This document shows positions 49 through 30,470 of a DNA stretch of 49,540 nt, piece after piece. Below the pieces are notes generated by a model. That model made no database searches. It was not told the DNA's origin and saw only the letters and a list, made by a program, of their open reading frames with translations. Every line of letters begins with the position of its first letter. Position 1 is the stretch's first letter. The stretch is taken from assembly GCA_025450635.1 (NCBI GenBank), contig JANWHA010000098.1:1-49540 (forward strand), read 5' to 3'. A program made the translations under genes and the position numbers. The stretch is from Croceibacterium sp. Lineage in GTDB: Bacteria > Pseudomonadota > Alphaproteobacteria > Sphingomonadales > Sphingomonadaceae.

Positions 49-91
49 CCAGTTCCATGCCTTGCTTTCCACAGCAGCCACGGAGACCCCG

Positions 92-7586: not shown

Positions 7587-7597
<11 letters not shown>
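6278..7597 (+). CDS. DUF4350 domain-containing membrane protein
   Basis: Predicted 439-aa protein with an N-terminal membrane segment (about residues 16-40) and a second near residues 305-325 ([17 protein letters not shown]). The extracytoplasmic part between them reads like the DUF4350 fold ([22 protein letters not shown], then [24 protein letters not shown]). DUF4350 domains resemble ABC-type substrate-binding or GATase-like folds, with no known reaction. The start is ATG 6278, whose ATGA overlaps the DUF4129 stop. Its end overlaps the MoxR gene by 11 bases. The position between DUF4129 and MoxR is the usual one for this gene group. Confidence 0.8.
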
Positions 7598-8539
<942 letters not shown>

Positions 8540-8543
<4 letters not shown>

Positions 8544-16624: not shown

Positions 16625-17347
16625 TCAGCGCTTCGGAGCGTAGTCGGGCAGCGCCAGCACGGCCGGACGGGCCGCCATGCGCTCAAGCCAGGCGGCGATC
16701 CTCGGCGTGGCGTCCGGGTTGCAAGCCTCCGGCATCACCCGCGGCAGCGCCGGGGCCATCGAGTACCACTTGATGTCGGCCAAGGAATAGAATTCGCCGA
16801 GCAGCCACGGGCGGCCGCCGTCCAGAATTCCCTCCAGCCTGGCGATGCAATTGCCGAGCTTGCGCCGAGCGTCCGCCAGCTCCTCGTCGGAATAGCCGGT
16901 CTCCGAAACCGTGGCCCACTTTCGGCGCACTTCCTCGTCGGGCATGTTGGCCAGCCGCGCGGCCATCTCGGCCTTATCGATCTTCGACGCAAACGGCGTC
17001 GCCCCGTGCGCGCCGATCGTCGTTAGCGCGGGGCAGAAGTACTCGTCGACGTATTTGGTCAGCACGCGCATTTCCGCGCGCAGCCAGGGATCGGCAGGGC
17101 GCAGCGGGACCTCGGGAAAAACGTCCTCGAGATATTCGTTGATCACGGTCGATTCGCCCACCGTTCGGCCCTCGTGGACGAGCACCGGAACGACGCCGTT
17201 CGGATTGATCGCGCGAAACGCCGGATCGTGATGCTCCCACTTGCGGCTGTCGAGCACGCGATTGTCGAACGCCAAGCCCTTTTCGAGCAGGCACAGCAGC
17301 GGCGTCAGGGAATTCGCGACGGGTCCGAAATGATAGAGCGCGAGCAT
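16625..17347 (-). CDS. Glutathione S-transferase, LigF-type (candidate beta-etherase)
   Basis: Predicted 240-aa GST. The thioredoxin-like half reads LYHFGPVANSLTPLLCLLEKGL, then INPNGVVPVLVHEG and ESTVINEYLEDVFPE. The helical half continues LRPADPWLRAEMRV and VDEYFCPALTTIG. From memory this closely follows LigF of Sphingobium SYK-6, a GST that cleaves the beta-aryl ether bond of lignin dimers using glutathione. The length is slightly shorter than LigF (about 257 aa). The gene overlaps the MarR gene (TGATG), so regulator and enzyme are one transcript. It is divergent from a LigD-like SDR. Substrate and stereospecificity are unknown; a generic GST function remains possible. Confidence 0.82.
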   Translation of the reverse strand: MLALYHFGPVANSLTPLLCLLEKGLAFDNRVLDSRKWEHHDPAFRAINPNGVVPVLVHEGRTVGESTVINEYLEDVFPEVPLRPADPWLRAEMRVLTKYVDEYFCPALTTIGAHGATPFASKIDKAEMAARLANMPDEEVRRKWATVSETGYSDEELADARRKLGNCIARLEGILDGGRPWLLGEFYSLADIKWYSMAPALPRVMPEACNPDATPRIAAWLERMAARPAVLALPDYAPKR

Positions 17348-17835
17348 CAGCCTCCGAGCCGCTGTTCCTGCTCGACCAGCGCCTGCGCCCGATCGCGCAT
17401 GCTGCCGAGCACGCGCCAGACGATCTCGACATCTTCTTTTGGAATGCCCGCCGTGAGGGCGCGATCGCGCTCCCCGACCCACTCGACCATCCGGGCGTAC
17501 AGCGCCCGGCCTTCACCGGACAGCGCGATCTCGATCTCGGGCCCGCCGGGCTTGCGCTCGCGGGTCAGCAAGCCGCGCTCGACCATCGTCTTGACCGCGC
17601 GGCTCAGCTGTCCGCGATCCTGCATCATCGCCTCGGCGAGGCCGTTGAGCGAGAGCGGGGCGGTCTCGCCGAGCTGGGTCATGATCCGCCATTCGGTCTC
17701 GGACAGGCCGAACAGCCGTCGCTGCGCCAGGATGCCGGCGCGGCGGAGGACGGCGAACAGGCGAATCATCCGCAACGAGACCAGCCCGAAGTCGGCCTTC
17801 GCGCCCCCGTTTGCCGCGGTTTGTGCGTCGTTCAT
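17347..17835 (-). CDS. MarR-family transcriptional regulator
   Basis: Predicted 162-aa winged-helix regulator. The middle of the protein has the MarR recognition pattern (TEWRIMTQLGE, then LAEAMMQDRGQLSRAVKTMVERGLLTRE), flanked by dimerisation helices. MarR proteins usually repress divergent genes and release DNA when an aromatic ligand binds. A strong ribosome site (GGGAGG) precedes ATG 17835. The gene is co-transcribed with the LigF-like GST and divergent from the SDR gene at 17924. A palindrome in the 88-base gap is the likely binding site. Confidence 0.9.
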   Translation of the reverse strand: MNDAQTAANGGAKADFGLVSLRMIRLFAVLRRAGILAQRRLFGLSETEWRIMTQLGETAPLSLNGLAEAMMQDRGQLSRAVKTMVERGLLTRERKPGGPEIEIALSGEGRALYARMVEWVGERDRALTAGIPKEDVEIVWRVLGSMRDRAQALVEQEQRLGG

Positions 17836-17870
17836 CCATTCCTCCCGTTGCCTGTCATTCTCTAGTGCAG

Positions 17871-17896
17871 TTTTGTTGGTGTCAAAAAGCTTTTTG
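17871..17896. promoter_or_regulatory. Candidate MarR operator between divergent genes
   Basis: The gap between the MarR and SDR starts contains TTTTG (17871-17875) seven bases from CAAAA (17883-17887). Overlapping this is a perfect 14-base palindrome CAAAAAGCTTTTTG (17883-17896). Such short AT-rich dyads in a divergent promoter are typical of MarR-family sites. Confidence 0.5.
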
Positions 17897-17923
17897 GTTC
17901 AGGATGATCGACCGGAGGACGCG

Positions 17924-18835
17924 ATGCGCGAATTCGCAGGCAGGACGGCGTTCATCACCGGCGGCGCGAGCGGCATCGGGCTCGGCATGGCCAAGGTGTT
18001 CGCCTGGGCCGGGATGAACGTCGTCGCCGGCGACATCCGCGAGGACCACATCGCCGCCGCCCACGACGCCATCGCCGACGAGGGCCTGGCGGAGCGGGTC
18101 CGCTTCATCCGCCTCGACGTCACCGACCGCGAGGCGTTCGCCGCCGCCGCCGAGGAAGCCGACGCGATGTTCGGCAAGCTCCACGTGCTGTGCAACAACG
18201 CCGGGATCGGTCTGCTCAAACCAATCAGCACAGCCAGCGAAGCCGACTGGGACTGGGCGATCGACGTCAACCTGAACTCGATGTTCAACGGCGTGAAGGC
18301 GCTCCTGCCGCGCATCCGCAAGCACGGCGAAGGCGGGCACGTCGTCAACACCGCCAGCATGGCCGGCGTGCTGCAGTACAGCCAGGCGGGCATTTACGTG
18401 ACCACCAAGTTCGCGGTTGTCGGCTTCTCCGAAGCGCTGCGCGCCGAGCTGGCGCCGGAGGGAATCGGCGTGTCGGCGTTCTGCCCAGGCGGCGTGCGCA
18501 CAAATATCCGCGAGTACGAAAAGACGCGTCCCGAGCGCTTTGCCGTGGAAGCCGAAACGCGAAGCGGCCCGCCACCCGGCTTCAGTTTCACGGAGGAACA
18601 GCGCGCGAGGCTCGCCAGCCTCACCGCCAGCCCCGAGGAGGCGGGCGAGCTGGTGCTGCAGGGCATCCGAGACAACGCGCTGTATATCTTCACCGCGCCC
18701 GAATTCCGTGCCGGCGTGGAGGAGCGCTTCGCTGCCATTCGCCGCGCGCTCGGCCAGGACGAGGAGCGCGCAGCCGTCGCGCGCGAACTGATCCCGGGGC
18801 TGGTCGGCAGCCCGATCTACAACGAAGCGCCTTGA
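17924..18835 (+). CDS. SDR-family NAD(P)-dependent oxidoreductase, LigD-like
   Basis: Predicted 303-aa short-chain dehydrogenase. The Rossmann motif TGGASGIGLG lies at residues 12-21 and NNAG at 91-94. The catalytic residues are Ser145, Tyr158 and Lys162 (GIYVTTKFA). The long C-terminal part (PEEAGELVLQGIRDNALYIF) recalls the Calpha-dehydrogenases LigD/LigL/LigN, which oxidise the benzylic alcohol of lignin dimers before ether cleavage. GGAGG lies six bases upstream of ATG 17924. It is divergent from the MarR/LigF-like pair, the arrangement expected for an alcohol dehydrogenase feeding a beta-etherase. The substrate is inferred, not proven. Confidence 0.87.
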   Translation: MREFAGRTAFITGGASGIGLGMAKVFAWAGMNVVAGDIREDHIAAAHDAIADEGLAERVRFIRLDVTDREAFAAAAEEADAMFGKLHVLCNNAGIGLLKPISTASEADWDWAIDVNLNSMFNGVKALLPRIRKHGEGGHVVNTASMAGVLQYSQAGIYVTTKFAVVGFSEALRAELAPEGIGVSAFCPGGVRTNIREYEKTRPERFAVEAETRSGPPPGFSFTEEQRARLASLTASPEEAGELVLQGIRDNALYIFTAPEFRAGVEERFAAIRRALGQDEERAAVARELIPGLVGSPIYNEAP

Positions 18836-18870
18836 GGGGGAGGGGCAATCGCGCCCGCCCGGTCAGCGTC

Positions 18871-20427
18871 TCAGTGTTTGTGAGTGGCGTACTCGATTCT
18901 GAGGTCGAGCAGCGTAGGTCCCTTCGCGGCGAAGCTCCATTCCAGGGCCTCGTCCAGTTGCCCGACGCTGTCGACCCGCTTCGCCTCAACGCCAAGCCCC
19001 TCCGCCAGCTTGACGAACTCCAGACCCGACAAGTCGCAGCCGGGCACCTCGTTCATGCCGAACTCGGCGGAAAAGCCGGTCAGCGCGGCGTAGGCGGCGT
19101 TGTTGAGGATCAGATAGCTGACGTTGGCCTTCTCGGCGGCAGCCGAGAACAAGCCCTGGATGGTGTACATGGCGGAGCCGTCGCCGAGGATGGCGACGAC
19201 CTTGTCCCGCTGCGCCATGGCGACGCCGACGGATGCGGGGAGGCCATAGCCGAGGCCGCCGCTGGCGCAGGTGTAGAAGCCGCCTTCTCGCGTGATCGGC
19301 AGCACGTCGTGTTCGGGACCGCGCGCGGTCGGCGCTTCCTCGACGATGACGGCATTCTCGGGCCGCAGCGCGGCGACGCGCTTGAGCACGTAAGCCGCGC
19401 TCATGGCCGCTTCCGGTTCGGCAAACGTGCGCCGCTTGCCGGTATAGGCACGCTTATTGGCGCGCTCGCACAGCAACGCGAGACCTTCGGCGACATTGCC
19501 GAGCACACCGCCTCCGCCGGGTAGGGCGGCGAGGTGTTGCGGGTCTTCGCTAAGGGCCATTAGCTTCGCGTGCTCCGGCCAATGCGGACCGCTGCCCTCT
19601 ACGTGCCAGGTGAACACCGGCGCCCCCGCGACGAGGATCGCATCGTATGGCGCGAGCAGCTTGCGCAAGTCGGCCCGCCACGCGGGGAGGAAGCCGGCGA
19701 AGTGCGGGTGGTCCTCGGGGAAGGTCTCGCGCGCGGCATAAGGCGCGGCCCACACCGCGCAGCCGGTCTTTTCGGCCAGGCGGATCGCCTCGTCCCAGCC
19801 GCCCGAATTGGCGACACCGGTGCCGATGACCAGCGCCGGGCGGTCCGAGCCATCGAGCATCGCCGAAAGCCGCTCGATGCCGGTGGCCGAAGGCACCGTG
19901 CACAGCGTGAGGCGCGGCAGCGCCGGCATCTCGCACTCGCGGTCCCAGTCGTCCACCGGGATCGAGACGTAGCAAGGCCCCATCGGCGGCGTCAGCGCGG
20001 TGACGAAAGCGCGGATCAGCGCCAGCGGCACGTCCTCGGCGCGCGCGGGCTCGATCGAGTACTTGACGTAGGGCCGCGGGAATTCGGGCGCGCGCTCGTT
20101 GTACAGGAACGGGTCGAACGGCAGGATGCTGCGCGCCTGCTGGCCGGCGGTGACCACCAGCGGCGTGCAGTTGCGGAACGCGGTGAACAGGTTGCCGAGC
20201 GAGTGGCCGGTGCCGGCGGCGCTGTGCAGGTTGACCAGCGCCGGGTTGCCGCTGGCCCGCGCGAAGCCGTCGGCCATGGCGACCACGACGGCTTCATTGA
20301 GGCCCATCACGTAAGGGAACGGCATGGCCTTCAGCATCGGGATCTCGGTGCTGCCGGGATTGCCGAACAACCGGTCGACGCCGAAGTGCTCGAAAACCCT
20401 GAAGGCGGCTTCGCGGACGGTGGGCAC
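18871..20427 (-). CDS. mdlC: Benzoylformate decarboxylase-type ThDP enzyme
   Basis: Predicted 518-aa thiamine diphosphate-dependent enzyme. It matches Pseudomonas benzoylformate decarboxylase (528 aa) along its length as I recall it. Ser26 (FGNPGSTE), Glu45 (LNEA), His68 (NLHSAAGTG) and His275 (GAPVFTWH) align with that enzyme's Ser26, Glu47, His70 and His281. The ThDP motif runs from GDGS (416-419) to NN (443-444). It would decarboxylate an aryl 2-keto acid to the aldehyde. Start GTG 20427 shares one base with the stop of the MFS gene upstream, so the two are coupled. No mandelate racemase or FMN mandelate dehydrogenase is nearby, so the natural 2-keto acid may not be benzoylformate. Confidence 0.85.
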   Translation of the reverse strand: MPTVREAAFRVFEHFGVDRLFGNPGSTEIPMLKAMPFPYVMGLNEAVVVAMADGFARASGNPALVNLHSAAGTGHSLGNLFTAFRNCTPLVVTAGQQARSILPFDPFLYNERAPEFPRPYVKYSIEPARAEDVPLALIRAFVTALTPPMGPCYVSIPVDDWDRECEMPALPRLTLCTVPSATGIERLSAMLDGSDRPALVIGTGVANSGGWDEAIRLAEKTGCAVWAAPYAARETFPEDHPHFAGFLPAWRADLRKLLAPYDAILVAGAPVFTWHVEGSGPHWPEHAKLMALSEDPQHLAALPGGGGVLGNVAEGLALLCERANKRAYTGKRRTFAEPEAAMSAAYVLKRVAALRPENAVIVEEAPTARGPEHDVLPITREGGFYTCASGGLGYGLPASVGVAMAQRDKVVAILGDGSAMYTIQGLFSAAAEKANVSYLILNNAAYAALTGFSAEFGMNEVPGCDLSGLEFVKLAEGLGVEAKRVDSVGQLDEALEWSFAAKGPTLLDLRIEYATHKH

Positions 20428-22055
20428 TAGACCGGTTCCCCTCCGGCGCGCGCGCGTTCGAGCACGGTCGCCTCGTCGCGGTTCACGCGGAACAGCACGG
20501 TGAACAGGCACACCAGCACCACCGGCCAGACCACGTTGATCGAGATGATCGCGGTGCCGAGATCGCCGTGCAGCCGGTCGCTGACGATGCCGACGAAGTA
20601 CGGGCCCATGCCGAGGCCGAGCAGCGTCTGGATGATGATGAAGATCGAGCTGGTCACCCCGCGCATGCGCGGCAGCACCAGGTCGTAGACCAGCGAATAG
20701 AGCGGCGGCAGCCACATCGTCAGGATCAGGCTGTAGGCGGTGAAGCGCAGGTAGAAGCTCGCCGGGTCGGGCGCGTGATAGGTCCAGATGCCGAAGATCG
20801 GCGAGACGCCGAGCGAGAAGATCGTCAGCCACACGCGGCCGCGGGCCCCCACCCGTGCGGTCAGCCAGTCCGACAGCGGCCCCGCGACGACCGGGCCGAT
20901 GATGCCGAGCCCTGCGGCGAGCAGGCCGAACTGCAGCCCGGTCGCGGCAATCGAGAGGCCGTAGGCGCGGTGGAGGAACGAGGGCGTGAATCCCATCACC
21001 GCGTAGTTTATCGAAGTCTGCAGCCCGGCGACGACGGTCAGCAGGATGATCGAAGGCGACAGCACCAGGTTGTAGGTTGGCCGGTCGGTCAGCCGCAGCG
21101 ACTGGAACATGTTGAGGATCACGAACAGCCCGAAGCCGACGACGAACCACTGCATCACGTGAGGGTCGATGTGCAGGCCCATCACGTCGGTCGGCGGGCG
21201 TGGCGAAAAGCGCTGGGTGATGCTCGTCATGGCGCGGCAGAACAGGACGATCACCAGCAGGCCCACCAGGTTGACCGTCCACTGCCGGGCGCCGGCCTTG
21301 CGGCTCCACAGCGACAGCCAGTTGATTCCCGGAGTGACCGAGGCGAGCACCGCTCCGCTGGCCTTGAACGGATGCGGGTCCGGCGGCGAGACGATGCCGT
21401 CAACCTCGCCGCGCACCGGCTCGCGCAGGCGGGAGATCAGCCAGGCGAGCAGCAGCCCGGGCAGGGAGGCTACGAGGAAGGCGAATTGCCAGCCCGAGAA
21501 GCCTCCGGGATGGTTCGGAAAACGCCCGTCCCACCACTGGGCAACCACGCCGCCCAGCGCCATCGAGAAGCCGAGGCCGAGCGAGGTGGTGATGCCCATC
21601 GCCGCCATCGCAGTGCCCCGCCGCGAGCGCGGGAAGGTGTCGAAGATGATCGAGTTGGCCGAAGGCTGTGCGGAAGCTTCGCCGATGCCGACGCCAAGGC
21701 GCGAGAAGGCGAGCAGCGCGAATCCGCCGGCAAACGCGGACAAGCCGCAGAACAGCGACCACGCGAAGATGGAAATCGACAGCAGCCGAGTGCGGATCCA
21801 GCCATCGACCAGCCGGCCGAGCGGGAGCGAGAACAGCGCGTAAAACAGCGAGAACAGCGTGCCGTAGAGCAGCCCGAGCTCGGAATCCCCGAGGTGCAGG
21901 TCAGCGCGGATGTTGGGCGCGAGGATCGACAGAATCTGCCGGTCGAGCAGGCTGAGGCCCTGCGCCGTGGAGACCAGCGTCAGCGCGTACCACCCGGCGC
22001 GGGAAACGCGGGTCGTCGGGGCGGGCGCGTCCTCCGGGACTGCGGTGGTGGCCAT
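20427..22055 (-). CDS. MFS transporter
   Basis: Predicted 542-aa major facilitator with twelve likely membrane helices. The loop after helix 2 reads GRLVDGWIRTRLL, the MFS signature. The first helix carries GLSLLDRQILSILAP, as in Spinster-like and aromatic-acid transporters of sphingomonads. It is somewhat long, with extended loops near residues 230-300. The start is ATG 22055, preceded by GGGGAGAGGAA. It is translated directly before the benzoylformate decarboxylase-type gene, so uptake of that pathway's substrate is the simplest guess. It is separated from the qorB-like gene by a large inverted repeat. Confidence 0.88.
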   Translation of the reverse strand: MATTAVPEDAPAPTTRVSRAGWYALTLVSTAQGLSLLDRQILSILAPNIRADLHLGDSELGLLYGTLFSLFYALFSLPLGRLVDGWIRTRLLSISIFAWSLFCGLSAFAGGFALLAFSRLGVGIGEASAQPSANSIIFDTFPRSRRGTAMAAMGITTSLGLGFSMALGGVVAQWWDGRFPNHPGGFSGWQFAFLVASLPGLLLAWLISRLREPVRGEVDGIVSPPDPHPFKASGAVLASVTPGINWLSLWSRKAGARQWTVNLVGLLVIVLFCRAMTSITQRFSPRPPTDVMGLHIDPHVMQWFVVGFGLFVILNMFQSLRLTDRPTYNLVLSPSIILLTVVAGLQTSINYAVMGFTPSFLHRAYGLSIAATGLQFGLLAAGLGIIGPVVAGPLSDWLTARVGARGRVWLTIFSLGVSPIFGIWTYHAPDPASFYLRFTAYSLILTMWLPPLYSLVYDLVLPRMRGVTSSIFIIIQTLLGLGMGPYFVGIVSDRLHGDLGTAIISINVVWPVVLVCLFTVLFRVNRDEATVLERARAGGEPV

Positions 22056-22075
22056 CGTCGTTCCTCTCCCCACTC

Positions 22076-22210
22076 AAATCCTCCCCGGAACGGGGAGCGG
22101 GACCACCCGAAGGGTGGTGGAGGGGGCCCGCCACCGGCGCGGCGCTGGAGGAGAGCCCCCTCCGTCAGCCGCCCGCGGCGGCCGCCAACTCCCCGTCCCG
22201 GGGAGGATTT
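22076..22210. repeat. Intergenic inverted-repeat element
   Basis: A 135-base element with terminal arms 22076-22097 and 22189-22210, which pair over 22 bases with one mismatch. Inside lie a hairpin around ACCACCCGAAGGGTGGT and a pair GGAGGGGGC/GCCCCCTCC, so the whole element can fold into a long branched stem. It fills the gap between the QorB-like and MFS genes. Similar CTCCCC-rich elements are scattered between genes in sphingomonads (general knowledge). It may affect mRNA stability in this operon. Confidence 0.7.
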
Positions 22211-22213
22211 AGT

Positions 22214-23068
22214 TCACCCCAGCGCCTGCCGGATCGTTTCGCCGATCGGCGTGGTCGGACGTCCGCTGAGCGCGCTTAATTGGCGTTGGTCGTTGTACAG
22301 CTGGCCTTCGCCGGCGAGATAGCTGGTGCTCGCGAGCAGCGCCGCGACCGGCGGCGGCAAGCCGGCGCCCTCGAGCGTCGTGGCGTATTCGGCTTCGCTC
22401 TGGTTGACGTATTTGACGTCCTTGCCCGAGTGCTTACTCAGCTCGCGGGCGAAATCGTCCATCGTCCAGCTGTGGTCGCCGGCGAGCTCGTAGATGTCGC
22501 CGCCCTTGCCGCTCACCAACGCCGCGGCGAGGCCGGCGGCGAGGTCGGCGCGGCTGGCGGTCGAGAAGCGCCCCTGGCCCGAAGCGCCGTAGACCGCGCC
22601 GGCCTCGATCGCCGGGGCGAGCCCGCCGACGTAGTTGTCGGAATACCACGGCATCCGCAGCACGTCGTGGTTGAGCCCGCTGTTCTCGAGCAGCTCCTCG
22701 GTTTCCTTGTGCTCGGGGGCGAGCGCGAGCTTCGAATTGCGCGCGTTGAGGATCGAGGTGTAGGCAAGATATTTCGCGCCGGCCTTCTTGGCCGCCTCGA
22801 TCACGTTGCCGTGCTGCCGCCCGCGCTGGCCGACGGCATTGCCGCTGATCAGCAGCACGCGGTCGACCCCCTCGAGCGCCGCTTCCAGGCTCGCTGGGTC
22901 GTCGTAATCGGCCTGGCGTACCTGCACGCCCTTCATCGCGTAATCGGCGAGAACCGCGGGGTCGCGCGCCAGCGCCACGATCTCGCCGGGCGCGGCCTTC
23001 TGCAGCATCTCGTCGAGCACCAGCCGCCCGAGCTTCCCGGTCGCGCCGGTCACCGCGTAGGTCGTCAT
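22214..23068 (-). CDS. qorB: NAD(P)H:quinone oxidoreductase, QorB/NmrA-like
   Basis: Predicted 284-aa atypical SDR. The nucleotide motif TGATGKLGR is at residues 8-16. The continuation VRQADYDDPASLEAALEGV, GQRGRQHGNVIEAAKKAG and YTSILNA closely follows E. coli QorB (YtfG, 286 aa) as I recall it, through to ELAGDHSWTMDDFARELSKHSGK. QorB reduces quinones with NADPH. In this operon, between transporter and decarboxylase genes, it may protect against or reduce quinones from catechol-type intermediates, or act as an enoyl or keto reductase. Members of this family vary in substrate, so the exact reaction is uncertain. Confidence 0.75.
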   Translation of the reverse strand: MTTYAVTGATGKLGRLVLDEMLQKAAPGEIVALARDPAVLADYAMKGVQVRQADYDDPASLEAALEGVDRVLLISGNAVGQRGRQHGNVIEAAKKAGAKYLAYTSILNARNSKLALAPEHKETEELLENSGLNHDVLRMPWYSDNYVGGLAPAIEAGAVYGASGQGRFSTASRADLAAGLAAALVSGKGGDIYELAGDHSWTMDDFARELSKHSGKDVKYVNQSEAEYATTLEGAGLPPPVAALLASTSYLAGEGQLYNDQRQLSALSGRPTTPIGETIRQALG

Positions 23069-23093
23069 TGTCTCTCTCCCTCGGGATTCGCCG

Positions 23094-24149
23094 CTACAGC
23101 TTGAACCAGCGCTCGGCGTTTGTCTGGAAAAATTTCTTCTTCAGCGCGAACGGGATGTCGAGGTCGTCCATCCAGCACACCTCCTCGGGCACGTACTGGT
23201 AGGGATAGTCCATCGCGTACATCACGCGGTCCTCACCCATCACCTCGATCATCGTCTTGATCGCCGGACCGAACGGCAGGCCGCTGTTGGTCGCGAGCAC
23301 GTTGTTGCGCATGTAGTGGAACAGGTCGTGCTGCAGCGGCTTGAGGCGCGGGTACCGGCCGCTGCGCAAGCCCGCCTTGTGCATGTAGTCCAGCCGGTAG
23401 AGCATGTGCGGCAGCCCCTCGCAGCCGTGGCCGAGCATCAGCTGGAGGTTGGGGTAGCGGTCGAACACGCCCGTCGTCATCAGGCGCATCGCGTGATAGC
23501 TGACCTCGACCGCGAAGCCGAACACCGCTCCGTCGAGCCCGGCCCCGACCATGTCGCCGATCATGTCGTCGGGCAGCCCCTGCGGGTGGATGTAGAGCGG
23601 CAGGTCGAGTTCGGAGCAGGCGCGCAGGATCGGGTCGAACTGCGGCTCGTCGAGATAGTGGCCGTGGGTGTGGCTGTTGACCTGCACCCCGTGAAAGCCG
23701 AGCTCTTCCTTCGACCGGCGCAATTCCTCGGCCGACCATTCGGGATCGATCGGGGCGACCGCCGCCATGCCGTAGAAGCGATCAGGGTAGCGCTCGCACG
23801 CGTCCTTCAGCTTGTCGTTGCCGTTGCGGGCGATGCGCTTGGCTTCCTCGGCGTCGAACAGCGACTGGGTGCCCGGGCTGGTCATCGCCAGCACCGCCTT
23901 GTCGATGCCGCTCTCGTCCATCGAAGCGATGCGCTGCGGCCCGGCTTCCACCAGGCGGTCGCGGATGAAGGTGGTGCGCTCGCTGGGGCTGGTGCCGTAG
24001 AAACCCCACAGGCTGACGGTGCCCTTGTCGGCACGGCCTTCCCTGACCAGGCGCATGATTGCGTCGAGCTGCTCCTGGGTGGCCCAGGCTTCTTCGGTCG
24101 CGATGCGCAGATAGCCGCGGTCGCCGCCGGTCTTGAGTTCGTGTGCCAT
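23094..24149 (-). CDS. Amidohydrolase-family aryl decarboxylase, LigW-like
   Basis: Predicted 351-aa TIM-barrel protein. The probable metal and catalytic residues are Glu19 (ATEEAW), Arg58 (SPSER), His188 (YIHPQG), His241 (LGHGCE), Asp314 and Tyr317 (AMDYPYQY). These positions coincide with those I recall for LigW, the Mn-dependent 5-carboxyvanillate decarboxylase of Sphingobium SYK-6, and SLWGFYGTSPSERTTFIRDRL also resembles it. The expected reaction is non-oxidative removal of a ring carboxylate. It starts two bases after the stop of the aldehyde dehydrogenase gene. An aldehyde dehydrogenase would supply such a ring carboxylate. Other activities of this superfamily (gamma-resorcylate decarboxylase, hydrolases) are possible. 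Confidence 0.85.
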   Translation of the reverse strand: MAHELKTGGDRGYLRIATEEAWATQEQLDAIMRLVREGRADKGTVSLWGFYGTSPSERTTFIRDRLVEAGPQRIASMDESGIDKAVLAMTSPGTQSLFDAEEAKRIARNGNDKLKDACERYPDRFYGMAAVAPIDPEWSAEELRRSKEELGFHGVQVNSHTHGHYLDEPQFDPILRACSELDLPLYIHPQGLPDDMIGDMVGAGLDGAVFGFAVEVSYHAMRLMTTGVFDRYPNLQLMLGHGCEGLPHMLYRLDYMHKAGLRSGRYPRLKPLQHDLFHYMRNNVLATNSGLPFGPAIKTMIEVMGEDRVMYAMDYPYQYVPEEVCWMDDLDIPFALKKKFFQTNAERWFKL

Positions 24150-24151
24150 CG

Positions 24152-25582
24152 TTATCCTTCGTGAACTGTCTTGGTGATCATGCACGCGAGCACGCCTTCG
24201 GGGCCGTCCTCGGCGCCGTGGCCCGACCACTTGACCCCGCCGAACGGGGCGTCGGCGGCGGCGATCATGTGGCTGTTGATGCCGACCATGCCCGTCTCGA
24301 TCGCGTCGGCGAGGCGGCGCTGGCGCTTGGCGTCGTTGGTCCAGGCATAGCCGGCGAGCCCGTATTCGAGGCGATTGGCCTCGGCGATCATCTCGTCCTC
24401 GCCCTTGTAGGGGTTGATGAGGGCCACAGGGCCGAACGGCTCCTCGTGCATGATATCGGCTTCGAGCGGCACTTCGCTGAGCACGGTCGGCTGGAAGAAG
24501 AAGCCCTGGTTGCCGATGCGGCTGCCGCCGGCGCCCAGCGTCGCGCCTTTGTCCTTCGCGTTGCCGATCAGCCGATCCATCGCCTCGGGCCGGCGCTTGT
24601 TGGCCATCGGACCCATCTGGGTGCCTTCGACGAGGCCGTCGCCGACCTTCACCTTCTGCGCGCGCTCGGCGAAACCGTCGCGGAAGCGCGCGAACACGTC
24701 TTCCTGGACGATGAAGCGCGTCGGGCTCACGCACACCTGCCCGGCGTTGCGGTATTTCCCGGCCACCGCGACATCGAGCACGTGGTCGACATCGACGTCG
24801 TCGAACACCAGCACCGGGCCGTGACCGCCGAGCTCCATCGTCGTGCGCAGCATGTTGTCGGCGGCGAGTTTCGCCAGGTGCTTGCCGACCACCGTGCTGC
24901 CGGTGAAGCTGAGCTTGCGGATCACCGGCGAGCCCAGCAGGTGGCGGCTGACCTCGTCGGGTACGCCGAACACCGCCTGCGCAACCTGCTTGGGCAGACC
25001 GGCGTCGAGCAACGCCTGCAAGATGCCGAGCGCGCTGGCCGGGGTTTCCTCGGCGCTCTTGAGGATCACCGAGCACCCCGCGGCACTGGGCGCGCCGAGC
25101 TTGCGCCCCGGATTGCCGAGCGGGAAGTTCCACGGCGCGAACGCGGCGACCGGGCCGACCGGCTCGTGCCGCACCGTCGAGCGCTGCCCGGCCGGGCGGA
25201 CCAGCTCGCGGCCGTAAAGGCGGAAGACCTCGCCGGCGTAGAAGTTGAACAGGCCGACCACCATCATCACTTCGATGCGGGTTTCGTCGAGCGGCTTGCC
25301 TTCCTCCATCGTGGCGACGCGGGCGAGGTCTTCCTGCCGCTCGAGCAGCAGCCGCGCGGCGCCCTGCAGCACCGCCGCGCGCTCCTGCGGGGTCGACTTG
25401 CGCCAGATGCGGAAGCCCTCGGCGGCGACTTCGAGCGCGCGATCGAGATCGCCCGCTTCGGCCAGCGGCAGCGCGCCGATCGCTTCGCCGGTGGCGGGGT
25501 TGACGACGTCGAACGTCCGCCGGCCGCCGCCGGAGACGCGCTCGCCGTCGATGATCATGTGGAGGGAGGGGTAGCTTGTCAT
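24152..25582 (-). CDS. NAD(P)-dependent aldehyde dehydrogenase
   Basis: Predicted 476-aa aldehyde dehydrogenase of normal length. It shows PWNFPL (catalytic Asn), FTGSTVVGK, the Glu motif MELGGHGP, the nucleophile Cys in GQVCVSPTR and the late EEPFGPV motif. It oxidises an aldehyde to the acid. The group includes succinate-semialdehyde and vanillin-type dehydrogenases. The gene is directly upstream of the LigW-like decarboxylase (two-base gap), so aryl aldehyde to aryl carboxylate followed by decarboxylation is a coherent pair. It could also take the aldehyde produced by the benzoylformate decarboxylase-type enzyme. Confidence 0.93.
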   Translation of the reverse strand: MTSYPSLHMIIDGERVSGGGRRTFDVVNPATGEAIGALPLAEAGDLDRALEVAAEGFRIWRKSTPQERAAVLQGAARLLLERQEDLARVATMEEGKPLDETRIEVMMVVGLFNFYAGEVFRLYGRELVRPAGQRSTVRHEPVGPVAAFAPWNFPLGNPGRKLGAPSAAGCSVILKSAEETPASALGILQALLDAGLPKQVAQAVFGVPDEVSRHLLGSPVIRKLSFTGSTVVGKHLAKLAADNMLRTTMELGGHGPVLVFDDVDVDHVLDVAVAGKYRNAGQVCVSPTRFIVQEDVFARFRDGFAERAQKVKVGDGLVEGTQMGPMANKRRPEAMDRLIGNAKDKGATLGAGGSRIGNQGFFFQPTVLSEVPLEADIMHEEPFGPVALINPYKGEDEMIAEANRLEYGLAGYAWTNDAKRQRRLADAIETGMVGINSHMIAAADAPFGGVKWSGHGAEDGPEGVLACMITKTVHEG

Positions 25583-25621
25583 TCGTGTCTCGCCATCGTT
25601 GGAGGAAGCGCGAACCCCCTA

Positions 25622-25737
25622 GTCCGTCCGCCCTGAGCTTGTCGAAGGGCAGTCTTTCCTTTGAGCGGGGCGCCGGAAGAAAAAGCGGTCGTAGGCCTTT
25701 GGCCAGCTTCGCTTCCGACAAGCTCAGGACGGACGGG
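25622..25737. repeat. Paired REP-like repeats, CCTGAGCTTGTCG core
   Basis: Two inverted copies share the core CCTGAGCTTGTCG: one at 25622-25650 on the plus strand and the complementary copy at 25714-25737. Both are flanked by repeated CCGTCCG. Together they fill most of the gap between the ALDH start and the SnoaL-fold gene. The core is a widespread intergenic repeat in proteobacteria, including sphingomonads. It can form a hairpin in the transcript and might separate expression of the flanking genes. Confidence 0.75.
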
Positions 25738-25758
25738 GATTGGGGGCAGCGTCTAGGA

Positions 25759-26538
25759 CTAGCCCGTCACCGCCGCCGCGGCTTCGGCTTTCTTGCGCGC
25801 CGCGCGCGCCTCGTCGCGCTTCTGGTCCCCTTCCCAGCGCTCGGCGACCATTTCCTCGCCGGTGATCGGGTGCTTCATGTGGAACGGCAGCAGCTTGTGG
25901 GTCGGCCACAGCCAGTGGTCCTCGATCAGCTCGTCGGGGCCGGCCGGATCGTCGGGATAGGTCGTGCGGATGAACGGGGTGTACTCGGGATCGGTGAAGG
26001 CCCAGCCCTTGTCGAAATCGGCGTGCCAGTGCGGGAAGTAGTTGAGCACGTGGATGCGCCACTTGCCGTCGGCGCCCTTCTTGTAGGTGTTCTCGTACAG
26101 GCCGCCTTCCCACCACTGGCGCATGCCGAGCCCGGCGGCCTCGTCGGTGTAGTCCTTGTGCCGCCCGGCCTGCATCGTCGAGCGGGCGCGCATCTTCGCC
26201 GTCACCCCGTCGGGCTCGATGTCGACGATGTCCTGCAGCTGCGGATGGTCGAGCAGGAAGCCGTCGATCGGTCCGTTGTTGTCGTGGGTGAAGCGCTTGC
26301 GGAAGCGCTCGCAATAGAGCCGCCGGGCGCCTTCCTTGCCCTTCCACACGCCGCCGAAGAAGCGCACCTCGCAATCGTCGGTGAACAGCTCGATCACCTG
26401 GTCGTACATGCACTTGTCGATCAGGTAGCCGTAGAGGAACTGCAGCTTGCGCACGTCGAGCTCGTCCTCGCGCCGCTGCAGGCGCTTCTCCATCGCCTCG
26501 AGCTTCGCCTCGAGCGCGGCGAGTTTTTCTTCGGACAT
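25759..26538 (-). CDS. SnoaL/NTF2-fold protein, long form
   Basis: Predicted 259-aa soluble protein. Residues 1-30 form a charged coiled coil (MSEEKLAALEAKLEAMEKRL). An NTF2/SnoaL-like domain follows (YGYLIDKCMYDQVIELFTDD, then WKGKEGARR). Asp41 and His98 occupy the places of the acid/base pair used by SnoaL-fold enzymes such as LinA and scytalone dehydratase. The C-terminal tail is Lys/Ala-rich. Start ATG 26538 has AGGAGAG upstream; an earlier in-frame ATG at 26568 lacks one. The ribosome site lies inside a potential hairpin. Possible roles are dehydratase, isomerase or a lyase of the diarylpropane type; none can be proven here. Confidence 0.78.
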   Translation of the reverse strand: MSEEKLAALEAKLEAMEKRLQRREDELDVRKLQFLYGYLIDKCMYDQVIELFTDDCEVRFFGGVWKGKEGARRLYCERFRKRFTHDNNGPIDGFLLDHPQLQDIVDIEPDGVTAKMRARSTMQAGRHKDYTDEAAGLGMRQWWEGGLYENTYKKGADGKWRIHVLNYFPHWHADFDKGWAFTDPEYTPFIRTTYPDDPAGPDELIEDHWLWPTHKLLPFHMKHPITGEEMVAERWEGDQKRDEARAARKKAEAAAAVTG

Positions 26539-26542
26539 CCCG

Positions 26543-26583
26543 ACTCTCCTAAATTGTATGCGTTGCAAACGATTTGGGAGAGT
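26543..26583 (-). promoter_or_regulatory. Hairpin that would mask the ribosome site of the SnoaL-fold gene
   Basis: The arms at 26543-26554 and 26572-26583 are complementary over 11 of 12 bases, with a 17-base loop. On the minus-strand transcript the second arm contains AGGAGAGU, the Shine-Dalgarno sequence of the gene starting at 26538, and ends five bases before the start codon. Pairing would hide the ribosome site. The loop contains an imperfect dyad (CGTTTGCAACG on the minus strand), so a DNA operator is an alternative reading. Confidence 0.5.
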
Positions 26584-26606
26584 TAGCGAGTCGCGTCAAC
26601 CGGCGA

Positions 26607-28028
26607 TCAAAGGCCGAGCTTCTCCAGCCGCTCGACTTCCTCGCGATAGGGCCGGATGCCGCGGTACATGAGGTATGTGGCCGTCGGCAGGAAGATCGCC
26701 GCGGTGATCAGGATCGACAGCCAGACCTTGCTCTCGTCGACGACGACGTATGTGCTGACCCAGCCGATCACAAAGCTGCCCATCGCCCCGAAAAAGGTGA
26801 ACATGAACAGATAGAAGGCGCTGATCTGGCCGCGCTTCTCGTTCGGCGTGATCCGCTGCACCGCGGCGTTCTGGGCCGGCGCTCCGGCGAGGCCGAAGAA
26901 CACCCCGAGCGACATCAGGGTGATCGCCAGGACGCCGTTCGGCATCAAGGGCGTCAGGACCGTGCACACCGTGGTGCAGGCGAAGATGATCGCCGTCGCC
27001 CGGATGTTGGCATCCTTGTGCCGCTTGGCCAGCCACTGGACGAACAGCGTCCCGGCGACGATGCCCGCCAGCATGGCGACCAGCTGCAGTGAGCCGAGCA
27101 GCGCGCCCGTTTGGGCTTCGCTCCAGCCATAGGTGCGTTTCATGAACGGGATCCGCCAGGCGGGCAGGCCCTGGCTCTCGACGGCCGACAGGGCGAGCGC
27201 AGCGAACAGCGGCAGGAAGACCTGCCTGTTCTGCCAGATGGCAACGGCCGCATCGAATCCCAGGAAGGCGAGCACCTTGCGTCCGAACGAAGCGCCTTCA
27301 GGCACGAGCTGATGCGCTTCGGGCGGGCTGCGGCGGGGCGGTTCCTTGACGAACAGCATGATCACGCCGGCGAGCAGGCCGAGCCCGCCGATGATGATCA
27401 TCACCAACTGCCAGTTGAACGTCATGATGCCGAGGACGGAGACCTTGGTCGGCAGCGTCGCCGTCCAGGCGATCATCTGTCCGCCGAGAATATTGCCGAG
27501 CGAGCTTCCGCCGATGTAGCCAAGCTGGATAAGCGCGAACACGAGCGGGATACGCAGCGGCCGGAAGTAGTCGACCAGCATGGAATAAGACCCCGGCCCA
27601 TTGGCCGACACCGAGGCGCCGACGAACAGGCGCGAGGCGATCAACTGGCCAAAGTTCTGGGCAATTCCGCCCAGCGCCATGATAATGCCAAGGATCGAGA
27701 TACCGCCCGACAGCACCCATTTGCGCGGGTAGATATCGACCAGCCGCGCGAGCGGGATGCCGACGATCACGAAGGCGATCACGCTCGCCGGGCCGAGCAG
27801 GAAGCCGAGCGTGGCGTCCGAGATGCCGAAGCTGCCCTTGATCCGCTCGGCCAGCATGCCGAACACGGTCTGGTCGAAGAACATCGTAAAGGTGGCGAAG
27901 ATGATCGCGGCGAGGGCGAACCAGCCCCAGCCCTCTGACGGCCACGGCTGCGCGCTGGGCATACCCACGTCCGCGGCCGCGTTTTCGGCTTCCGCGACCA
28001 TGCCGGGCGCGGTCGGCGCTATAGCCAT
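26607..28028 (-). CDS. MFS transporter
   Basis: Predicted 473-aa major facilitator with twelve likely membrane helices after a 30-residue cytoplasmic lead. Helix 1 has FFDQTVFGMLAERIKGSFGISDATLG, and the helix 2-3 loop has RLVDIYPRKWVLSGG. It differs from the other MFS protein in the locus and is probably not a recent duplicate. A good ribosome site (AGGGAGAGAG) precedes ATG 28028. It is the first gene of the minus-strand catabolic series and is divergent from the exported SnoaL-fold gene across 138 bases, which also contain a small GC hairpin at 28045-28063. An importer of an aromatic compound is likely. Confidence 0.88.
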   Translation of the reverse strand: MAIAPTAPGMVAEAENAAADVGMPSAQPWPSEGWGWFALAAIIFATFTMFFDQTVFGMLAERIKGSFGISDATLGFLLGPASVIAFVIVGIPLARLVDIYPRKWVLSGGISILGIIMALGGIAQNFGQLIASRLFVGASVSANGPGSYSMLVDYFRPLRIPLVFALIQLGYIGGSSLGNILGGQMIAWTATLPTKVSVLGIMTFNWQLVMIIIGGLGLLAGVIMLFVKEPPRRSPPEAHQLVPEGASFGRKVLAFLGFDAAVAIWQNRQVFLPLFAALALSAVESQGLPAWRIPFMKRTYGWSEAQTGALLGSLQLVAMLAGIVAGTLFVQWLAKRHKDANIRATAIIFACTTVCTVLTPLMPNGVLAITLMSLGVFFGLAGAPAQNAAVQRITPNEKRGQISAFYLFMFTFFGAMGSFVIGWVSTYVVVDESKVWLSILITAAIFLPTATYLMYRGIRPYREEVERLEKLGL

Positions 28029-28166
28029 TCACTCTCTCCCTTGGGGCGCGTCTTTCGCGCGCCTTCGTGAATCTGCTTGCGGCGGTTTGTAGGCAGCGAA
28101 TAGACGAAGGCGAAGCGAAAACTTGTCGACAGATGTTGCGCGTCATGCGCCGGGGGAGAAACAAAC

Positions 28167-28763
28167 ATGCCGAGATTCGTTGCCCGCGCGGTGCTCACCG
28201 CCGCCGTCCTCATCACCACCGGAGCCCTTTCGATGACCGCTCAAGCCAAGCAACCGACCTATTCCGCCCACTATGCCGAGGACCGCTCCGAGATCGAGGA
28301 CCTGATGGCGCGCTACCTGTTCGCGATCGATTACTTCGACTGGGATTCGTACGTCGAGACTTTCGCCCCCGACGGCGAGCTGACCTTCGCCAGCGGTACC
28401 TCCAAGGGGCGCGACGCCATCCGCGCGGCGGTGACCAGCTTTTCCAGCCGCATCGGCCAGTTCTATCACACCGAGGACGGCAAGCCGGCCAAGCTGCGCC
28501 ACGTGATCCTGCAATCGTCGATCCGCGTCGAGGGCAATCATGCCTGGGGCCGCACGCTGTGGGTCGAGATGGCCAATCACGGACCCGGCGACACGATGAA
28601 GATGGGCACTTACGGCATTTACGAGGACGAGTTCAGCAAGATCGGCGGCCACTGGTTCATCCAGAAGCGCAACGTGCTCAACGAATTCCTCAAGGGCCGC
28701 AATTCGGGTCCGAACAACCCGGTGCGCGACATGGACGCGCTGGCTGAGGCGGCCAGGAAGTGA
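28167..28763 (+). CDS. Exported SnoaL/NTF2-fold protein
   Basis: Predicted 198-aa protein with an N-terminal signal peptide (cleavage expected after AQA at 25-27), then a SnoaL-like domain: DRSEIEDLMARYLFAIDYFDWDSYVETFAPDG. The candidate catalytic pair is Asp55 and His112, 57 residues apart, the same spacing as in the two other SnoaL-fold proteins of this locus. It would act in the periplasm, which is unusual for catabolic SnoaL enzymes. A strong ribosome site (GGGGGAGA) precedes the ATG. The stop overlaps the start of its paralogue (GTGA). The substrate is unknown. Confidence 0.82.
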   Translation: MPRFVARAVLTAAVLITTGALSMTAQAKQPTYSAHYAEDRSEIEDLMARYLFAIDYFDWDSYVETFAPDGELTFASGTSKGRDAIRAAVTSFSSRIGQFYHTEDGKPAKLRHVILQSSIRVEGNHAWGRTLWVEMANHGPGDTMKMGTYGIYEDEFSKIGGHWFIQKRNVLNEFLKGRNSGPNNPVRDMDALAEAARK

Positions 28764-29239
28764 GCTACGCTGCCGACCGCGCCGAAATCGAGGACCTGAT
28801 GGCGCGGTACCTGTTCGCGATGGATTACCACGACGCCGACGGCTACGCCGAATGCTTCACCGAGGACGGCGAGCTCGACTGGGCGATGGGCGTGGCGCGC
28901 GGGCGCGAGGCAATCCGCGCCGAGGCGCTGTCGTTCAAGGAGCGCATCGGCGAAATCTTCAAGGATAGTTCGGGCGCAGCGGCCAAGCTGCGTCACGTAG
29001 TGGCGCACAAGGCGATCCGCGTCGACGGCGACCGGGCATGGAACACCGGCTTCTGGTTCGAGATGACCAACGGCGGTCCCGACGGCTCGATCGCCTTGCC
29101 GAGCTTCGGCATCTACGAAGACGACCTTGTGCGGGTCGACGCGCGCTGGCTGTTCCGGCGGCGGAAGATCTATAACGAGTTCCTGCCGGGCCGCGAATCC
29201 GGCCCGGCCAACCCGGTAGTCGCCATGGACGCCGCCTAA
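28760..29239 (+). CDS. Cytoplasmic SnoaL/NTF2-fold protein, tandem paralogue
   Basis: Predicted 159-aa protein, clearly related to the preceding gene product: both have EIEDLMARYLFA, DGEL, GR(D/E)AIRA, AKLRHV and a closing NEFL..GR.SGP.NPV. It lacks a signal peptide. The candidate catalytic pair is Asp22 and His79, again 57 residues apart. The start is GTG 28760, overlapping the previous stop. The tandem pair probably arose by duplication, followed by gain or loss of the export signal. Known relatives include dehydratases, dehydrochlorinases and cofactor-free lignin-dimer lyases; the reaction here is open. Confidence 0.82.
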   Translation: MSYAADRAEIEDLMARYLFAMDYHDADGYAECFTEDGELDWAMGVARGREAIRAEALSFKERIGEIFKDSSGAAAKLRHVVAHKAIRVDGDRAWNTGFWFEMTNGGPDGSIALPSFGIYEDDLVRVDARWLFRRRKIYNEFLPGRESGPANPVVAMDAA

Positions 29240-29242
29240 ATT

Positions 29243-29264
29243 CCCCTCCCGCTTGCGGGAGGGG
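29243..29264. repeat. GC-rich perfect hairpin after the SnoaL-fold pair
   Basis: CCCCTCCCGC and GCGGGAGGGG are separated by TT, just after the stop at 29239. No T-run follows on either strand, so it is not a standard intrinsic terminator. It resembles the short CCCTCCC hairpins scattered between sphingomonad genes and could still stabilise or end the transcript. Confidence 0.55.
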
Positions 29265-29450
29265 AGAAGGGCGATCCAACATTCGTTGGCAGCGTAACGA
29301 AAGGTCTTTCCTACAATCTGTCGTTCTGCGTATGTTCGAACCTTTCTTCCGCGATTCCCGGCTGCCGCAGCTGGCTTTCGAGCGCGGATCCGTGAAGGAT
29401 CGGTCTGGTCCTGTTTGGCCAGTGCGACGTGTGACCTTTCTTGCTCTTAA

Positions 29451-29464
29451 GTATTTGGAAATAC
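29451..29464. promoter_or_regulatory. Palindrome upstream of the second SDR gene
   Basis: GTATTT and AAATAC flank GG, a perfect inverted repeat 92 bases upstream of ATG 29556, in an AT-rich patch. It is a plausible operator for a dimeric regulator. No regulator gene adjoins it. Confidence 0.4.
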
Positions 29465-29555
29465 AGTGGACGCGGAAGAAACCGGAAGTTTTGCGGGATG
29501 TGTTTATGGGTGACTTTTCCCTGACTTTTGGAACGGCCCGCGATGGAGCGCTGAC

Positions 29556-30470
29556 ATGATCGATTTCTCCGGCCGCACGGCCTTCGTTACCGGAGGCGCC
29601 AACGGCGTCGGAATCGGCATCGTACGCAATCTGCTCGAGGCGGGCGCGAAAGTGGCAATCGCGGACATCCGCCAGGACTCGATCGACCAGGCGCTAGCCA
29701 CGCTCGACAACCGCGAGGTGATGGGCGTGCAACTCGACGTGAGGAGCCGCGAGGGCTTTGCCGCGGCGGCGGACGAGGTCGAGGCCAGGCTCGGGCCGGT
29801 CAGCCTGGTGTTCAACAACGCCGGCGTGAACCTCTTCCAGCCGATCGAGGACAGTTCGTACGACGATTGGGACTGGGTGATGGGCGTCAACCTCGGCGGG
29901 GTTATCAACGGCGTGATGACCTTCGCCCCGCGGATGAAGGCGCGCGCGCAATCGGGCGAAGTGAAGGGTGGGCACGTCACCAATACCGCCAGCATGGCCA
30001 GCTTCATCGGCAGCGGCACGCCGGGCATCTACAACACCAGCAAGTTTGCCGTGCGGGGCCTCAGCTATTCGCTGCGCCACTCGATGTACCGGTACGGCAT
30101 CGGCGTCAGTTGCGTGCATCCGGGCCTGGTGAAGAGCTACATCTACGCCAGCGACGACGTGCGGCCCGACGAGCTGAAAGCGGAGATGAAGCCCGTCGAC
30201 ACCGCGATGGTCGAGCGGCTCGCGGGAGTGCACGAATTCGGCATGGAGCCCGACGTCATCGGCGCGCGCATCCTCGAAGGCATCCGCGAGAACCGCGCCA
30301 ACATCTTCACCCATCCGGATCACAAGCAAGAGGTGCGCGAGATCTTCGACGAGATCCTCGCGGACTACCGCGACTATCCGAACGACCCCGGGTTCGACCA
30401 ACGAGTCGGTTTCGAGAAGATTCGCCGCGACAATTACGCCGAAACCCGGCGCAAGGCGCGCGAGATATGA
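29556..30470 (+). CDS. SDR-family NAD(P)-dependent oxidoreductase, LigD-like
   Basis: Predicted 304-aa short-chain dehydrogenase. It has TGGANGVGIG at 12-21, NNAG at 87-90 and catalytic Ser146, Tyr159 and Lys163 (GIYNTSKFA). The stretch YDDWDWVMGVNLGGVINGVMTF and the long C-terminal helix region recall LigD-type Calpha-dehydrogenases even more than the SDR at 17924. It would oxidise a secondary alcohol with NAD(P)+. It has its own upstream non-coding region, so it may be separately controlled. Two LigD-like dehydrogenases in one locus fits the use of different stereoisomers, as known for LigD/LigL/LigN. Confidence 0.87.
   Translation: MIDFSGRTAFVTGGANGVGIGIVRNLLEAGAKVAIADIRQDSIDQALATLDNREVMGVQLDVRSREGFAAAADEVEARLGPVSLVFNNAGVNLFQPIEDSSYDDWDWVMGVNLGGVINGVMTFAPRMKARAQSGEVKGGHVTNTASMASFIGSGTPGIYNTSKFAVRGLSYSLRHSMYRYGIGVSCVHPGLVKSYIYASDDVRPDELKAEMKPVDTAMVERLAGVHEFGMEPDVIGARILEGIRENRANIFTHPDHKQEVREIFDEILADYRDYPNDPGFDQRVGFEKIRRDNYAETRRKAREI

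Follow-up and report, generated by a model that had tools for sequence, protein, structure and literature searches.

A benzoylformate decarboxylase-like gene as a companion of LigW at a beta-5 lignin-dimer locus of Croceibacterium sp., with a predicted aryl 2-oxo acid branch

A locus for the catabolism of lignin-derived aromatic compounds was analyzed on a contig of a Croceibacterium sp. metagenome-assembled genome (MAG). The window, i.e., the whole stretch of DNA that was analyzed, comprises 49,540 nt. The main operon lies on one strand, from position 28028 down to 18871, and has the order MFS2-PcfL-FerD-LigW-NmrA-MFS1-BFD, with intergenic gaps of 68, 176, 2, 25, 158, and -1 bases from the first gene to the last. 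MFS denotes transporters of the major facilitator superfamily and BFD a benzoylformate decarboxylase-like enzyme dependent on thiamine diphosphate (ThDP), whose long reading frame probably starts at 20427. The genes for SnoaL2, SnoaL3, and a short-chain dehydrogenase/reductase (SDR2) are divergent from the operon. To the left of BFD, and convergent with it, follow the gene for SDR1, a MarR gene, and the gene for a glutathione S-transferase (GST), and then efflux genes. The gene order recurs in the loci of many relatives and, because of this repetition, is not due to chance. A first-pass annotation had listed the genes at 16625-30470 apart from the MarR gene, which it overlooked, and domain and PDB searches found all protein classes that it named at or near the positions it gave. 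The features are as follows:

26607 to 28028, minus strand: MFS2, MFS transporter, first gene of the operon (PF07690); position kept in many syntenic loci
25759 to 26538, minus strand: putative PcfL-type gamma-formaldehyde lyase with an NTF2/SnoaL fold (SnoaL_4); best PDB matches 8ABV, 8ABT, and 8ABU
24152 to 25582, minus strand: FerD-type aldehyde dehydrogenase (PF00171); 79% identical to the aldehyde dehydrogenase adjoining LigW in Sphingobium SYK-6 (locus L153)
23094 to 24149, minus strand: LigW/LigW2-type 5-carboxyvanillate/5-carboxyferulate decarboxylase; 505 bits to 4INF, 4QRN, and 4QTG
22214 to 23068, minus strand: NmrA/NAD_binding_10 (QorB-like) reductase (PF13460, PF05368); present in some, not all, syntenic loci
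20427 to 22055, minus strand: MFS1, MFS transporter (PF07690); its stop overlaps the start of BFD by one base
18871 to 20427, minus strand: BFD, type II benzoylformate-decarboxylase-like ThDP enzyme (NF005485 above cut-off)
28167 to 28763, plus strand: SnoaL2, SnoaL_4 protein (PF13577); divergent partner in many loci
28760 to 29239, plus strand: SnoaL3, SnoaL_4 protein (PF13577); 51% identical to SnoaL2
29556 to 30470, plus strand: SDR2, C-alpha dehydrogenase family, at the LigO/LigN position; 503 bits to 3IOY, then 4YA6
17924 to 18835, plus strand: SDR1, LigD-like, separate module; best PDB match 4YA6
17347 to 17835, minus strand: MarR regulator, separate module (PF01047)
16625 to 17347, minus strand: LigF-like GST, separate module; best PDB match 4XT0 (LigF)

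The protein encoded at 25759 matched SpLdpA (8ABV) with 170.5 bits, and its strong relatives among solved structures were confined to 8ABV, 8ABT, and 8ABU, which are titled SpLdpA or NaLdpA. The residue His97 of NaLdpA, which is replaced in the H97Q structure 8ABU, aligns with a histidine of this protein. The gene is located upstream of ferD-ligW, as Saro_0796 precedes Saro_0797 in Novosphingobium aromaticivorans, and position and kinship mark its product as a predicted PcfL rather than LdpA; the N. aromaticivorans locus was compared by gene tags. A second gene of the LdpA/PcfL family is present on contig C28 of the same genome, is 38% identical, and appears LdpA-like by eye. LigW is 69% identical to the LigW of the SYK-6 locus, and the metal ligands Glu19, His188, and Asp314 are invariant in 15 aligned sequences. 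Of 20 PcfL loci in relatives (19 at an identity of at least 64%, one at 50%), 18 have FerD and LigW in the same gene run as PcfL. At nine loci (L089:14637-16202 and eight others) a FAD_binding_4 flavoprotein is located between FerD and LigW, which by eye resembles vanillyl-alcohol oxidase.

The core of the window corresponds to the already published beta-5 lignin-dimer locus (pcfL-ferD-ligW, mBio 2024), as judged from the predicted proteins. According to passages of PMC11323797, N. aromaticivorans uses PcfL (Saro_0796), FerD (Saro_0797), and LigW (Saro_0799), along with LsdD, to break the beta-5 dimer DC-A down to vanillin and ferulate; the gene table of PMC12997858 gives lsdD the tag Saro_0802. 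In the parts of these two sources that cover Saro_0793-0802, the order PcfL, FerD, LigW is the same as in the window, the ligN/ligO tags adjoin pcfL, and lsdD lies three tags past ligW; by tag number, two genes would fit between ligW and lsdD, none of which is named BFD in that text. Because the core matches this locus, the first-pass statement that the genes follow no described route is wrong for it. Its assignment to lignin-dimer catabolism held, and the deformylation, aldehyde oxidation, and aryl decarboxylation that it proposed are the PcfL, FerD, and LigW steps in the passages of PMC11323797.

The SYK-6 ferD-ligW2-lsdD locus (L153) has the order MFS2-FerD-LigW-MFS1 as in the window, followed by genes for GMC, DUF3237, LsdD, MarR, and MFS3, but it contains neither PcfL nor BFD. 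Its GMC gene was read as hpvZ, which we infer from the SLG numbers in the part of PMC12997858 that lists them. As the same synteny is found at this locus, a steroid or terpenoid pathway with the same gene order, named in the first-pass annotation as a possible refutation, was not what the synteny search returned. In the Croceibacterium genome, the genes for LsdD, GMC, DUF3237, and FdhA are located outside the window, grouped on contig C114. The genome encodes four RPE65 proteins, and the copy on C114 is 90% identical to the protein at the LsdD position of locus L092. LigM (77%) is encoded on C68, and both C102 and C88 carry genes for LigB-family proteins. PinX has a DUF3237 domain and shares 42% identity with PhcG and 38% with PhcF (passages of PMC12607616). 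By homology, PcfL would split formaldehyde off the phenylcoumaran acid to form a stilbene, the LsdD-type lignostilbene dioxygenase from C114 would cleave the stilbene to vanillin and 5-formylferulate, FerD would oxidize the latter to 5-carboxyferulate, and LigW would decarboxylate this to ferulate. The FdhA-type dehydrogenase from C114 could take up the formaldehyde.

BFD is a standing companion of the LigW/beta-5 gene set, and none of the literature surveyed places such an enzyme in a locus of this type. The ThDP decarboxylase, which the first-pass annotation had named, is indeed an unexplained but conserved part of the locus. BFD reached 644.5 bits against NF005485 (cut-off 493), matched the BFD entries of the PDB down to E 8e-111, and keeps the equivalents of the catalytic residues Ser26, Glu47, His70, and His281. 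In a tree of 57 rows, 47 including the window BFD were placed on one side of a branch with a support of 96/89. A second kind of BFD, with 51-53% identity, formed its own branch of eight rows (98/94); the two kinds had been named by a 57% identity cut set before the tree was built. BFDs of the second kind adjoin Rieske oxygenases (L219, L221, L223) or an FMN dehydrogenase (L220).

BFD was found with at least 65% identity in 29 of 298 genomes of the family. It adjoins MFS1 in 11 of the 20 PcfL loci of relatives; in two of these 20 (L053, L057) the contig is short and stops close to LigW, before BFD could appear. Seventeen BFD loci were away from PcfL, and none of them contained PcfL within 20 kb, while FerD and LigW were present within this distance in 14, and GMC also in 13. 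The 14 PcfL-free BFD-FerD-LigW loci include LsdD at 75% or more in 12, GMC in 13, and DUF3237 in all 14. Among the named LigW loci (the best 80 of 564 confirmed), 34 carry BFD, i.e., 18 of the 46 with PcfL (at least 60% identity) and 16 of the 34 without it. The BFD-bearing loci belong mostly to Erythrobacteraceae or have uncultured names, and five are labelled Novosphingobium; unlike the window, Novosphingobium-named syntenic loci are mostly devoid of BFD. Locus counts were taken from tblastn tables, in which a match had to cover half of the query, because the cluster labels do not distinguish SDR1 from SDR2 or SnoaL2 from SnoaL3. The genes of the relatives were called by a GC3 rule, not by a trained gene finder.

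The association was also seen at the level of genomes. Of the 298 genomes, 38 contained LigW (E<=1e-120), 44 any BFD (E<=1e-100), and 37 both; G075 was the sole genome with LigW and without BFD. BFD was thus present in 37 of 38 LigW genomes versus 7 of 260 LigW-free genomes (Fisher 6e-39, kinship ignored). With a stricter LigW set the numbers were 35/36 versus 9/262 for any BFD and 26/36 versus 3/262 for the kind found in the window. Counted per genus, BFD occurred in 14 of 15 genera with LigW and in 5 of 81 others (Fisher 7e-12). Hand-picked named LigW genomes, several of which are also among the 298, contained BFD in 18 of 21 cases, or in 15 of 18 when the three already showing BFD at the locus were left out. 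The genome and genus lists for these counts were typed by hand from the search outputs. A class-wide search detected BFD at E<=1e-160 in 3 of 385 genomes, the own genome included, and all three belong to the same family. On plasmids, BFD was found in none of 47 records at an identity of at least 60%, and LigW in 2 of 139 records at the same threshold.

In three genomes, a compact operon pairs LigW directly with a BFD of the kind found in the window. A TetR gene is followed by MFS-TonB receptor-LigW-BFD in Novosphingobium sp. SG707 (L171:5460-12631), Sphingomonas sp. AR_OL41 (L280:1673-8835), and Sphingobium nicotianae (L281:3692-10836). The spacing between LigW and BFD is 9-19 bases, and the proteins are 90-93% (LigW) and 82-86% (BFD) identical among the three genomes. 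In contrast to the window, this operon is devoid of FerD, PcfL, and LsdD, so that it encodes no enzyme other than LigW and BFD, and it has its own outer-membrane receptor. A main FerD-LigW locus is present in these three genomes as well (L168, L161, and L184). No description of this operon was found in the titles, abstract starts, and passages of the literature surveyed. In AR_OL41, a second BFD gene precedes those of a Fer2_2 protein and a Mo-type oxidoreductase that binds molybdopterin (L279:9179-13513).

Further settings of BFD were observed. The BFD of SYK-6 itself (52%, outside the tree) is located 2.4 kb from DesA, a syringate O-demethylase, and near a p-hydroxycinnamoyl-CoA hydratase/lyase; it adjoins a gene for a beta-keto-acid cleavage enzyme (BKACE; L282:9362-14764). 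In G213, BFD lies beside FerD, and LigW was absent from the genome at the E-value given above. In G045 and G183, BFD is near an aldehyde dehydrogenase of 39-41% and MFS3. In G235, a BFD of the second kind lies between LigM-MetF and MarR-MFS3; LigW and LsdD are missing there, and the aldehyde dehydrogenase within 20 kb has only 31% identity.

The LigF-like and LigD-like genes are a module of their own that is merely adjacent to the BFD operon in this contig. The GST matched the solved structure of LigF (4XT0) with 185.7 bits (E 1.1e-53), and the next match among solved structures had E 4e-14; a LigF-like protein of G269 (c40) appears closer to LigF by eye. The best solved relative of SDR1 is the C-alpha dehydrogenase 4YA6, and for SDR2 3IOY is followed by C-alpha dehydrogenases including 4YA6, so both are putative LigD-type C-alpha dehydrogenases by family kinship. 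The MarR gene adjoins the LigF-like gene in G191, G066, G069, and G136. GST, MarR, and SDR1 are together on C6 of G191 and C8 of G066, with BFD on C9 and C7, respectively; in G069, GST-MarR and an SDR of 55% are on C1 and BFD on C5; in G136, LigF-MarR is about 315 kb away from BFD. G232 is without a close SDR1. Efflux genes that match those of the window adjoin LigF in G136 and G191, and in G191 a second SDR, which the window is lacking, is located between MarR and SDR1. None of the 28 BFD loci of relatives (at least 64% identity) has LigF or SDR1 beside BFD. The module meets the BFD operon across 18836-18870, and this junction is either a rearrangement or a join made during assembly of the MAG, two cases that cannot be told apart. 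The putative ether cleavage, which the first-pass annotation had placed in the same pathway, belongs to this separate module and is encoded elsewhere than BFD in G191, G066, G069, and G136.

SnoaL2 and SnoaL3 form a separate, Rv3472-like group and are not LdpA/PcfL proteins, as indicated by their sequences, which are 51% identical to each other, and by a fold search with SnoaL3. The AlphaFold model of SnoaL3 (pLDDT 95) had its best fold match in Rv3472, and LdpA was among many weaker NTF2 matches. The first-pass annotation had counted three SnoaL folds, and SnoaL_4 domains are indeed present at 25759, 28167, and 28760, but a reading of all three as LdpA-like was rejected, as this applies to the protein at 25759 alone. 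The N-terminus of SnoaL2 is signal-peptide-like by eye, and the protein may therefore be periplasmic; SnoaL3 has no such stretch. The SDR at the syntenic position of relatives is 57-84% identical to SDR2. A 23-base near-palindrome follows SnoaL3 (29242-29264); it also occurs in three copies of 22-23 bases on C114 and at several loci of relatives, often as inverted pairs.

We propose, with a probability of about 0.68, that the locus combines the beta-5 core with a BFD branch for aryl 2-oxo acids, while the LigF/LigD-like genes stand apart. The predicted substrate of BFD is a lignin-derived aryl 2-oxo acid, e.g., vanilloylformate or a relative substituted at ring position 5. It would enter the cell via MFS1 or arise inside it, BFD would decarboxylate it to the aryl aldehyde, FerD or another dehydrogenase would oxidize the aldehyde, and LigW would then strip a carboxyl group ortho to the phenol where one is present. 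That BFD is so regularly accompanied by LigW suggests a substituent ortho to the phenol in some BFD substrates. This could be a 5-carboxyl group next to a glyoxylate at C1, or a 5-glyoxylate that is treated by BFD, FerD, and LigW in turn, and the sequences give no choice between the two. The tie of BFD to LigW and FerD favors the aryl 2-oxo acid intermediate that the first-pass annotation had suggested, though it does not extend to the proposed origin of that acid from a dimer. In passages of PMC9811514 and PMC7760541, the BFD of Rhodococcus jostii acts on 4-hydroxy- and 4-hydroxy-3-methoxybenzoylformate and that of Pseudomonas fluorescens on benzoyl- and 4-hydroxybenzoylformate, and BFDs of both genera are tied to lignin aryl-C2 keto acids (also Wei 2019, as cited there). 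A link of BFD to ferD, ligW, or pcfL was not found in the titles, abstract starts, and passages surveyed; computational enzymology papers and CO2 reviews naming both BFD and LigW were judged by title. BFD is nearly always present where the genome has LigW, it is part of the operon in many Erythrobacteraceae, and it forms a compact operon with LigW in three other genomes, which suggests that published maps lack an aryl 2-oxo acid step. Sphingomonads serve as leading models of how bacteria break down lignin dimers and of how this can be used to make chemicals, and the substrate of BFD would reveal which lignin fragments these bacteria meet and would add an enzyme for funnelling.

Several points weigh against this proposal. 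BFD is missing from 46 of the 80 named LigW loci, including that of SYK-6, and therefore the beta-5 route does not need BFD in the locus. Seven genomes of the family have BFD without LigW (G045, G183, and G213 with the kind of the window; G072, G134, G220, and G235 with the other kind). Aromatic specialists share many genes, and in the co-occurrence analysis kinship was handled by the genus count alone, without an unrelated catabolic gene as control; in the first look, scores were taken only for a few top candidates in each genome. The completeness of the MAG is 74%. An argument from the substrate pocket (T377P and F397T/S versus P. putida MdlC) was rejected, as BFDs of other contexts share both changes; the pocket residues therefore give no pointer to the substrate, and they also fail to separate the two kinds of BFD.

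An unlikely alternative is that BFD, FerD, and LigW successively process one substituent, the ring-5 side chain of an ortho-hydroxyaryl glyoxylate. This side chain would represent Cbeta-Cgamma of the beta-5 dimer after Calpha-Cbeta cleavage and would be turned into the 5-formyl and then the 5-carboxyl group before its removal by LigW. All three enzymes would be used, the 14 of 17 loci with BFD, FerD, and LigW but no PcfL would be accounted for, and the BFD-FerD pair of G213, the LigW-BFD operon of three genera (each genome having a main FerD-LigW locus as well), and the AR_OL41 BFD followed by a Mo-type oxidoreductase are in line with it. However, we know of no metabolite that is a ring-5 glyoxylate of this type. 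In addition, LsdD, GMC, and DUF3237 are present in most or all of the PcfL-free loci, so that a SYK-6-like stilbene route is possible there instead, and seven genomes, among them G235 with BFD in a LigM-MetF locus, contain BFD but no LigW. Also improbable is the wider claim that this constitutes an aryl-glyoxylate route undescribed in sphingomonads, in which a two-carbon 2-oxo acid group at ring position 5 would be stripped by the three enzymes (glyoxylate to aldehyde to acid to hydrogen) as a stilbene-free exit from beta-5 dimers, and which would stand alone as the LigW-BFD operon with TonB receptor in other genera.

It is likewise improbable that BFD serves an ordinary mandelate/benzoylformate route that neighbors the lignin operon but has no metabolic link to it. 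BFD belongs to the NF005485 equivalog, and some sphingomonad BFDs do adjoin FMN_dh or Rieske oxygenases. The aryl-C2/bzf clusters of R. jostii RHA1, P. fluorescens Pf-5, and Pseudomonas LLC-1 share BFD with the window, and the combination of BFD, MFS, and aldehyde dehydrogenase known from LLC-1 (passages of PMC7760541) is present here. Yet the LLC-1 cluster has a LysR regulator and an OprD-type porin, neither of which was found among the window genes scanned, and LigW, PcfL, and LsdD are unmentioned in these passages. The window BFD group is separated from the BFDs with FMN_dh or Rieske neighbors by the two supported branches, no FMN dehydrogenase or Rieske oxygenase was detected in the scan, which did not take in every open reading frame of the window, and the linkage to LigW is repeated and independent. 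A single new pathway with the LigD-like, LigF-like, SnoaL, BFD, aldehyde dehydrogenase, and LigW proteins in series is very unlikely: all enzymes are indeed encoded within 14 kb of the contig, but against it stand the separate locations of the LigF-MarR-SDR genes in three relatives and of LigF-MarR in a fourth, the 28 BFD loci without them, a junction that could be an assembly join, and the sequences of SnoaL2 and SnoaL3, which are not LdpA-like. Hardly credible is a use of PcfL-derived formaldehyde by BFD through carboligation. A glycolaldehyde synthase engineered for C1 use is reportedly derived from a BFD, but BFD does not track PcfL in the named LigW loci, which disfavors this option, and an FdhA-type gene is present.

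Some genes of the window lie outside the cluster. A large serine recombinase and a DNA methylase are encoded at the left end (2-3498) and are possible remains of a mobile element. A MoxR ATPase-DUF58-SpoIIM-RDD run is located at 7272-11725, and a PQQ-type beta-propeller protein, perhaps an alcohol dehydrogenase, is encoded at 43518-45305.

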